Below, in pieces: positions 54,786 to 58,539 of a stretch of 64,000 nt of DNA; the first letter of the stretch is position 1, and each line of letters opens with the position of its first letter. The notes beneath the pieces are model-generated. The model had not been told where the DNA came from, ran no database searches, and saw only the letters and a list, made by a program, of their open reading frames with translations. The position numbers and the translations under genes were made by a program. The stretch comes from Opeltia flavorubescens (Eukaryota; Ascomycota; Lecanoromycetes; Teloschistales; Teloschistaceae). The stretch is taken from contig KE546965.1 of assembly GCA_000442125.1 (NCBI GenBank), positions 1,984,001 to 2,048,000 of the forward strand, written 5' to 3'.

Positions 54786-55824
54786 CTACAAAGCCCCTGA
54801 CTCCACAATCACGACCTTTGAGCTCGGAGATCTGTTCCGATTGATTTCATAAGCGTTGAATCTCTTTTGCGAGGGCTATTTCATGATTGAGCTGTGGGAG
54901 AACGGAAAAGTAAACATACCCGCTAGGCGAACCGCAAGCTTCGACCGCTTTCACGTACTCCGATCCTGAAGCTACCTCTCCGAAAACGCAGTGCTTGCCG
55001 TTGAGATGAGGGGTGGGGACGGTGGTGATAAAGAATTGGGAGCCGTTTCTTCATTATGCATGGCGGATATTAGTGTTGCTCAGATTGGTGATGCACGCAT
55101 ATGGTAAAGCATGAAAAGATCTCGACTCACGTGTTCGGACCTGAATTTGCCATACTGTGGTTTTGTTAAGCTTCATGTTAGCAAGCCTCGTTTTAAAACT
55201 TGGCAATCTAGGGCGAGGCGGGCTTACGAGAGGAGGAACGGTTTCTCGTGCTTACGGACGAAATTCTCGTCTTGGAATTTGGCGCCGTAAATCGATTTTC
55301 CGCCCGTTCCCTGTTCAGTGTAAGATTCGTCAGCATTTAAATTCCCAGGGCTACTTATTTCGAAAGCCAAAAGATAATCACTTACATTACCAGCGGTGAA
55401 ATCCCCTCCCTGAAGCATGAAACCAGGAATGATACGATGAAACGAGGAACCCTGGTAGCCAAAGCCTTTCTCGCCCGTGCAAAGAGCGCGGAAATTCTCT
55501 GCAGTCCTGGGTACTACATCGTAGTATAGGTCAAAGATGATTCTGGCCGGTGGACCTATGTAGTATTAGGGAACGACAAATGCTAGCTTTGGATTCAGGA
55601 TGATCTACCGTCGTTGACAGTGACGTCGAAATAGACTTGGGGCTTTGAGGAGCTGGTCACAGTTGGAGCTGATGAGCCCTGCTGACTCGACGACGACTGA
55701 GTAGTTTTGGAGCCTTCCGTCCAACAATGTTAGCCCTTTTCCTCCTTATAAGCATCAACGAGGATCAGTCACCAGTATCGTCGCCCTTGGCTTTTGCCTT
55801 CAACTTGCTAAAGAGTTTGGACAT
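54786..55824 (-). CDS. Small cyclophilin (peptidyl-prolyl isomerase), Cyp40-like active site
   Basis: Seven exons (55824-55773, 55713-55609, 55555-55386, 55310-55228, 55154-55131, 55048-54920, 54831-54786) give 202 residues. A basic, then Gln/Ser-rich N-terminus of about 45 residues ([18 protein letters not shown]) precedes a complete cyclophilin domain: [47 protein letters not shown] (catalytic Arg, Phe, Met and Gln), [17 protein letters not shown] and [12 protein letters not shown]. The Trp that binds cyclosporin A in CypA is His here (PTPHLNGKH), as in Cyp40-type cyclophilins, but no TPR domain follows. It probably assists protein folding in the cytosol or nucleus with reduced cyclosporin sensitivity. 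The 24-base exon 5 is easily missed. Confidence 0.92.
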
Positions 55825-56217: not shown

Positions 56218-57232
56218 ATGGCGGAATTTGGGATTATTGCCTCCATAATACAGATCGCCGATGTCGGATTACGTCTCAGCCTCAAGCTATATACCTTCGG
56301 TGAAACTGTAGCCAGTGCTGATAGGACGGTCTTAGCCATTTCCAAAGACATATCGCTTACATCCTCGGTCCTCAAGGAACTGGGCCATAGTCTCGAACGG
56401 GATAAACAGGCACAAATATGTTCCCAGAATGCCATCAAGACGGCCGAGGAAGTCGTACAGGAATGCTTGGTCGTCTTTCAGGAAATCGATGGATTACTGG
56501 AGAAGACCGCTGGTCATGAAGGGAAACCGATGCCGAAGTGGACCTCTGCGGTCGTGGGAAAACTCAAATGGCCGTTTCTGCAGCCTAAAATGCAATTGCT
56601 GAGGAGCAACCTGGATAGATTAAAGGCGACTTTATTGCTGATGCTCAATGTGATGACCTACGCCAGGCAGGTGTCTGAAAGGTACATCCAACAGTCAATG
56701 CCGGCACTCCACCGATCGATTGGGTTATTTGAAGTCGATGTGCTGATTCGCTGATAGTGGTCTTCAAGCCTCACAGCTAGACGATCACCGCAAGTTGATT
56801 GAAGATCTTGCGCGGTCTAAGGACGAATACACACGTAAATTCGAGACCCTTACTCAATCTATCACGACGACTTTCTCCGTCGAAGGCAATCCAGAGACTC
56901 ATAGTCTCATCCATCCAACGAGCCCTGAAAGCTCGCCAGAGTTGCTACCAACGTCGCCTGGATCAAGTCGCCTGATGTATGAGCTCAAATTCTATAGTGG
57001 CCTAATCAATAAACTCTTGCGTAACGTGGAGGCTGCTGAGCGCCATATGGAACCTCTTCTGGGGTCAAGGATTCGGGATGATATCATTGTCACCCATCGG
57101 CGTGAAGCACTTCGTCTTGACTCCTTGCACGGTCCAGAACGGCTAAGAGCAACTATTACAGGTAAAGCATGGGATTTACTTGGATCAACAATTATCGCTG
57201 AGGCAAGCCTAGCTTGGTCAGGCACAAGTCAG
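56218..57232 (+). CDS. Fungal_N-type signalling domain protein (N-terminal two exons)
   Basis: Exons 56218-56681 and 56758-57232 (intron 76 bases) code 313 residues. It opens MAEFGIIASIIQIADVGLRL, the classic beginning of the Fungal_N domain (azaphilone cluster protein L-type, related to N-termini of fungal NLR-like proteins), and continues through LAISKDISLTSSVLKELGHSL and a helical middle with AGHEGKPMPKW. The second exon (GLQASQLDDHRKLIEDLARSKDEYTRKFETL) is a coiled coil, then a Ser/Pro linker and a helical block ending AWSGTSQ. The 3' end is uncertain: splicing from the GTAAGA donor at 57233 can lead to a short tail (acceptor at 57314 or 57401, with stops soon after) or to 57427, which enters the HapC-like frame downstream. 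Function unknown; the domain is linked to protein-protein contact in NLR-like receptors. Confidence 0.75.
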
Positions 57233-57426
57233 GTAAGAAGGTCAAACACTTTCCCTACGCTCTCAATTTCACACCTATTGGTTTCCTCAATTACTCTTGA
57301 CACTCTTTTGCTAGTGCGTTTTTCTTTTTCGTTGAGCAAGTCTACTTCATGCAAACTACTCGGATCGCACCGATATCAGTCGAGAAGAAACCATTTTTTA
57401 GAAGGCATTGGAACTATTGCCAGTAG

Positions 57427-58539
57427 CGAACAGACGCTTACGTTGACCAGCCCTCAGCAACATCGCAGACTCCAGCAACGCTGAACAAGGCAGTGTTTGG
57501 GGTTCAGCCAACGTCGTTAAGTGAACCACGTCGCGCCCATCGCTGGGTCGAACCAACTGGTTCACAAGAAAATGAGAATCAATCGGAGATCTCCACCAGA
57601 CCTCCAATATTTGCAACGGCTGACATGTCATTTGCGAACCGGAGGTCCCTTTCTTTCGGCCGGCAAAAAACGGGGAGACCTGTAAAACAAGATCAACACA
57701 GCGTCAATCCCTCTGTCAGAGAAACCGCTACGGCGATCGACACTGTCCCGCCTGGTCAGAGTCGGAACCGATCTGCATCCCCAACCGAAATACGTTCTTT
57801 TGTCCGATCAGACTCAGCGTCTGAAGGTAGCGCGGAATATATGGATCGTGAAGAATCCGACTTTGGCTGTGAACCAGCCTACGATTTTGAGGTCAAAGAG
57901 CAAGACAGATGGCTTCCGATTGCAAATGTAGCAAAAATAATGAAACGTGCCCTTCCAGAAGATGCCAAAATAGCAAAAGAGACCAAAGAGTGTATGCAAG
58001 AGTGCGTCAGCGAGTTTATCTCATTCATCACGAGTGAAGGTATGTAGTGGATAGCCACTTCATCTTTGACGTTGAACCACTAATGTTTAACAGCTGCCGA
58101 AAAATGTCAAATGGAGAAAAGGAAGACCCTTGGAGGCGACGACGTGCTATTCGCAATGACGTCGCTTGGTTTCGAGAATTATGCACAAGTACTACGTATC
58201 TATCTGACACGATACCACCAAACAGTGCACAAAAAAGGTTCTGTTTCTCATCCGTTTCCTTCATCGCCGAATGCCATACCCAAGAGAGCCACTACTTCAC
58301 CAATCTCGACACAGGATCGACCCCTGAGGACGAAGTCTCAAACTAGCGGCGCAGATGCCTTTACCACTGCCAAAGACCACACAGCATCACATGGAAAAGA
58401 TGAAGACGAGCCCAACGATCATGACAATGCTACCTGGCCTAGAGAAGATGGCGGCTCTAAACAAGACAGCAAAAATGAAGCTACTAGCGTGGTCGACCAT
58501 TTACTCTCCGAATGGACATTGCTCACCGACTTTCGCTGA
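57427..58539 (+). CDS. Divergent HapC/Hap3 (NF-YB) histone-fold protein, possible fusion partner
   Basis: Exons 57427-58039 and 58094-58539 (intron 54 bases). If independent, the first ATG in frame is at 57625 (MSFANRRSL). The histone fold begins at [21 protein letters not shown] and runs through [18 protein letters not shown] and [19 protein letters not shown] to [12 protein letters not shown], so the NF-YC contact and CCAAT-binding residues are recognisable. Compared with the fungal HapC consensus as I remember it, several positions differ ([28 protein letters not shown]), which suggests a second, faster-evolving copy. The 95-residue N-terminus and 115-residue C-terminus are polar and disordered. 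The frame stays open to 57427, directly after an acceptor TAG, so it can be spliced to the Fungal_N exons. HapC binds CCAAT boxes with HapB and HapE and controls iron and redox genes. Confidence 0.8.

Follow-up and report, generated by a model that had tools for sequence, protein, structure and literature searches.

A candidate fusion gene joining a HeLo-like domain to a HapC-type histone fold

Results

Organization of the locus

Within the window, by which we mean the whole 64,000-nucleotide stretch of DNA analysed here, four exons on the plus strand (56218-56681, 56758-57232, 57427-58039 and 58094-58539) join into one open frame of 665 amino acids plus stop, in agreement with the single protein of about 665 residues proposed in a preliminary description of this DNA. 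Exon 1 encodes a putative helical domain of the HeLo-like (PF17111) type and exon 2 the region after it, which may include a coiled coil. The 5' part of exon 3 (57427-57876) encodes a linker and is followed by a HapC/NF-YB-like histone fold (57877-58215), which is split by intron 3 (58040-58093). Exon 4, placed by the frame of its join, holds the end of the fold, a further linker, a tail and the stop codon, and its tail contains a ten-residue motif (58489-58518) common to HeLo-like relatives. The proposed intron 1 (76 nt, 56682-56757) has GT-AG ends, and its removal brings the reading frame back into step at LIEDLARSKDEYTRKFE, a segment that aligns with a paralogue in the same genome, and intron 3 corresponds in site and phase to a modelled intron of the canonical hapC gene. 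Just upstream of the candidate fusion gene a cyclophilin exon (PF00160) lies on the minus strand at 55224-55565, and 54847-55050 looks like a further piece of the cyclophilin gene.

The proposed intron 2 (57233-57426) has an uncertain 3' end. The donor CAG/GTAAGA at 57233 and the acceptor TAG ending at 57426 are both present as previously described, the junction between them is of phase 0, and the donor has the top consensus count among the donors compared. The acceptor exists and keeps the frame, but its precise use is unsupported: no YTRAY branch-like site occurs 10-75 bases before it, and other acceptors keep the frame too, among them 57468, which has a TTGAC branch-like site upstream. Combining 16 donors with 29 acceptors gave 94 GT-AG pairs that keep the frame into HapC; seven of these use the donor at 57233, with acceptors at 57426, 57450, 57468 and four other positions. 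Because so many donor/acceptor pairs keep the frame, the splice junction taken alone is weak evidence for a fusion.

The acceptors at 57314 and 57401 were likewise found to give short tails with stops, as had been noted, and with the 82-nt intron from 57233 to 57314 only six residues would follow before the stop. One locus might accordingly make two products by alternative splicing, either a short HeLo-like protein (through 57314 or 57401) or the fusion, a reading that is favored by the several usable acceptors and by the sequence CTTGAC (57296) shortly before 57314. An intron of this length would, however, be expected to yield short tails of this kind by chance, and we consider two products from the locus rather unlikely.

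Coding potential was scored with a 3-periodic model trained on 18 frames of the window together with 30 taken from 19 further loci. Exon 2 scored +17.1 bits in one frame, with the other five negative. The proposed intron 2 as a whole scored negative in all six frames, though two of its sub-stretches were each positive in a single frame, at +2.4 and +1.7. Beyond it, the first in-frame ATG stands at 57625 and the next at 57841, and the 198 bases that precede the first (57427-57624) scored +6.5 bits in frame. Dinucleotide shuffles reached that score in 13 of 1000 cases, and the frame stayed open in 160 of 1000.

The N-terminal domain

The head of the predicted protein (residues 1-313) has its closest relative in the paralogue on contig C1 (C1:871071-872086), with 70% identity over residues 1-155, which supports exon 1, and 40% over residues 152-307, which together with the coding score supports exon 2; weaker relatives include loci on contigs C16, C6, C15 and C3. 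The preliminary description had spoken of a clear Fungal_N domain, a name we take to denote PF17111, listed as PigL_N in the Pfam copy used. This wording was too strong: PF17111 matches the window protein at 16.1 and 17.8 bits against a curated cut-off of 27.2, exon 1 alone gives no PF17111 match at E 0.01, and a plain filing under PF17111 was dropped since the score lies below the cut-off. The same family is called HeLo-like (PMC9815663, in excerpt). A PF17111 search of the genome returned 14 loci, 10 of them above the cut-off, and the window is absent from the 14. The head nevertheless matches C3:2124471 with an E-value of 9.4e-11, and this locus scores 38.9 bits with PF17111, above the cut-off, so that the head is tied to the family by homology to one of its members.

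In a single-sequence structure model, exon 1 folds into five helices, with a pLDDT of 78.4 for the best of five models and 46.0 for the worst. When this fold was compared with the PDB, no match reached E 0.001, the best having an E-value of 0.066. Across the 665 amino acids no nucleotide-binding domain and no repeats, as would define an NLR (STAND receptor), were matched by Pfam at E 1. The window has 18 other frames of at least 200 amino acids; a Pfam scan of nine of these and of one shorter frame, made in search of an NLR neighbor, gave matches for eight of the ten, none of them of NLR type.

The surroundings of the paralogue show two features of their own. A stretch of 10% G+C (C1:869583-870332, or L017 1-750) ends about 740 bases upstream of it and is, we presume, of the kind that repeat-induced mutation leaves, and a frame-broken region lies downstream (C1:873900-875000, or L037 4900-6000), which we take to resemble a CHAT-domain gene.

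The histone fold and the canonical hapC gene

Residues 464-558 match HapC (PDB 4g91_B) with an E-value of 1.3e-46, and residues 475-539 match PF00808 at profile positions 2-65 of 65 (E 6.6e-24, 84.4 bits). In the ranking of PDB chains HapC and NF-YB stand on top, with NC2 and CHRAC far below. The fold, with a complete PF00808 domain and its best similarity to NF-YB and not to NF-YC, NC2 or Dpb4, is thus of the HapC/NF-YB type.

Besides the window and the canonical hapC, a search of the genome with the fold at E 0.1 returned a match of 37% identity on contig C14. The canonical hapC is a stand-alone gene on contig C3 (locus L004), with which the window fold shares 79 of 95 residues and 210 of 285 bases over 95 codons. 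An intron within SEA is alike in position and phase in the two copies, as modelled; two of the three modelled introns of the canonical gene are without counterpart in the window copy, and the canonical HapC C-terminus differs, lacking the window tail motif. Over 90 residues the canonical HapC differs from the Aspergillus nidulans chain at one position and the window copy at 16, and nearly all of the change has therefore taken place on the window branch. The two copies within the genome likewise differ at 16 of 90 residues, with pN 0.11 and pS 0.86 (dS was saturated, and dN/dS ratios were therefore dropped in favor of pN and pS). We read the histone fold as having remained under constraint after an old duplication of hapC, which dates the copying and not the insertion. 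NF-YB invariant positions, 63 in number, were defined on five sequences: the canonical HapC, 4g91_B and another three chains of NF-YB, presumably of plants. The window fold keeps 56 of the 63; the seven changes include N62G, and several of them are conservative.

These values also bear on whether the locus is a functionless fusion gene that is drifting, for which one could point to a head scoring under the family cut-off and a HapC copy evolving faster than the canonical HapC. Against this, 665 codons stay open, and an excess of pS over pN is found both in the HapC part and in the first 100 codons (pN 0.168, pS 0.78 against the paralogue), which makes drift very improbable. No relatives outside the genome were found when genome_contigs and viral_contigs were scanned with the HapC part.

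A tail motif shared with HeLo-like relatives

The paralogue (C1:871071-873090) has the head and a similar [IV]VDxLLxxWT tail, and no histone fold. The last 16 residues of the window protein resemble the paralogue end IVDTLLRKWTLVPRLRVSGI; in the window the motif stands downstream of the HapC-like fold, which places the HapC piece between a family head and a family tail. The last 30 amino acids aligned with the last 45 of the paralogue at a score of 47, reached by none of 2000 shuffles, with lengths chosen post hoc, and the whole 107-amino-acid tail showed weak similarity to the paralogue at a score reached by 21 of 2000 shuffles. A protein search of the genome with the 107-amino-acid tail returned the window and two matches (E 0.2 and 0.87) and did not find the paralogue tail. 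Linker homology was dropped as a proof of fusion, since the linkers of the two proteins show no significant similarity (p 0.27 to 0.76 by shuffles) and their scores fall within the shuffle range. In the paralogue's own exon model, which is predicted, a donor lies at the place matching the end of exon 2, and the family tail is encoded further on.

As a DNA pattern, the motif has eight matches in the 34.4-Mb genome (23 contigs), which is fungal judging from its genes, against two for a reversed control. Half of the eight share the strand of one of 21 HeLo-like loci and lie no more than 2.5 kb downstream of it; among the 21 are weak matches too. Without the discovery pair, two of six matches lie near HeLo-like loci (nominal P 8.7e-6, to be taken as a guide only, the pattern having been composed after its four instances were known). 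The strict motif occurs at four of the 21 loci, the window included, and was not found within 3.2-4.7 kb downstream at the other 17. These 17 include three of the six closest relatives (L038, second by E-value, L040 and L042); L043 has a looser match. In L039 (C6:114002 onwards) and L041 (C3:2124471 onwards) a motif of the form [IT]VDxL[LM]xxWT lies mid-frame, the frame staying open for another 292 and 384 codons, and in these proteins it could serve as a shared docking site.

On these sequence comparisons, relatives without HapC also combine the head with the tail motif, and because the motif that ends the HapC-like frame recurs in HapC-free HeLo-like relatives, the fusion gains independent support. 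The earlier suggestion of a single gene with both domains is supported by this motif together with the coding signal upstream of the first in-frame ATG. The same evidence weighs on the alternative of two adjacent genes, in which a short HeLo-like gene would end near 57320-57450 and a separate HapC paralogue would start from the ATG at 57625 or at 57841. Such an arrangement would use the in-frame ATGs that exist and the short tails with stops, and would agree with the stand-alone nature of the canonical HapC gene. It leaves unaccounted for, however, the coding-like character of 57427-57624, which contains no in-frame ATG, the HeLo-like tail motif at the end of the HapC frame, which is missing from the canonical HapC, and the modelled paralogue that runs on past the matching donor; we regard it as improbable. 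One gene encoding one HeLo-like/HapC fusion protein of some 650-665 residues is the reading we hold to be likely, with our confidence lowered slightly because the motif pattern was post hoc and many joins keep the frame.

Discussion

Under the fusion reading, a single protein would begin with a HeLo-like (Fungal_N) helical domain and continue through a linker and a HapC (NF-YB) histone fold to a short tail motif of the family. In their association with DNA, HapC and HapE resemble a nucleosome, and it is HapB that reads the CCAAT box (PMC7266990, in excerpt). We see an even chance that the window fold still pairs with HapE, and perhaps it would also engage HapB. Such pairing would tie a HeLo-like protein to the CCAAT-binding complex, where it might compete and so alter the complex, or else act as a built-in bait or sensor that registers interference with it. 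The whole of this explanation, with fusion gene, HapE pairing and link to the complex, is the best we can offer and appears to us about evenly balanced between right and wrong.

By analogy the protein may work like an integrated decoy. That definition involves a domain copied into a receptor gene from a conserved gene that effectors target, and a response once a foreign effector binds the copy: the HapC copy in a HeLo-like gene is seen, and the target and receptor parts are putative. Since no nucleotide-binding domain was matched in the window protein, we speak of it as decoy-like and not as a decoy. A sensor or decoy role is possible and somewhat doubtful, and a competitor role is as likely as one resembling an integrated decoy. 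A related scenario has the histone fold acting as a transcription regulator or dominant HapC competitor, with the HeLo-like part a mere scaffold without death function. The constraint on the fold and the weak HeLo-like assignment (below the cut-off and without a PDB match) would fit this, and the changes at seven of the 63 invariant NF-YB positions argue against it; we see it as a tentative alternative to the explanation preferred above. HeLo-like domains are listed among the pore-forming domains of fungal NLRs (PMC12258605, in excerpt). It is conceivable, though we put it forward as speculation that is unlikely to hold, that a HeLo-like effector has incorporated a histone-fold subunit of the CCAAT-binding complex, wiring the state of this central transcription factor directly to a self-recognition or cell-death domain, which would amount to integrated-decoy logic outside NLRs, in fungi.

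Among the matches listed in our literature search, no HeLo-like/HapC pair was described in titles or abstract openings. Extra Hap3-like proteins are known, as Gzccaat007 of Fusarium graminearum groups with Hap3 at lower similarity (PMC7078317, in excerpt). Compared with HapC/NF-YB/Hap3 of the CCAAT-binding complex (4g91_B), the window protein is alike in its histone fold and has one intron site in common with the canonical hapC of its genome; it differs in that the fold is embedded in a 665-residue protein with a HeLo-like head, departs at seven of 63 invariant positions and lacks the canonical C-terminus. To HeLo-like/PF17111 fungal proteins it is linked by an N-terminal domain 70% identical to that of a same-genome paralogue and by a tail motif common to three relatives, and it is set apart from them by the histone fold and the sub-cut-off PF17111 score, no nucleotide-binding domain being matched. 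From the sequence, we take the pairing as a likely case of a HeLo-like family protein that has received a conserved domain, each part being of a known kind.

Plant NLRs are known to carry integrated target domains, fungal NLR kinase fusions have been proposed to do so, and a CHK-2-like kinase domain occurs in nine Sordariales NLRs (PMC12258605, in excerpt). The window protein differs from integrated-domain NLRs in having neither nucleotide-binding nor repeat domains, and its decoy role is putative. It resembles them in that the domain copy of a conserved gene is built into another gene of a defence type, and the CHK-2-like kinase NLRs are the closest precedent we know for such a decoy. Should the protein be made, it would link a HeLo-like protein to the CCAAT-binding complex, and a histone fold in a protein of HeLo-like type that has no NLR core would broaden the idea of integrated target domains.
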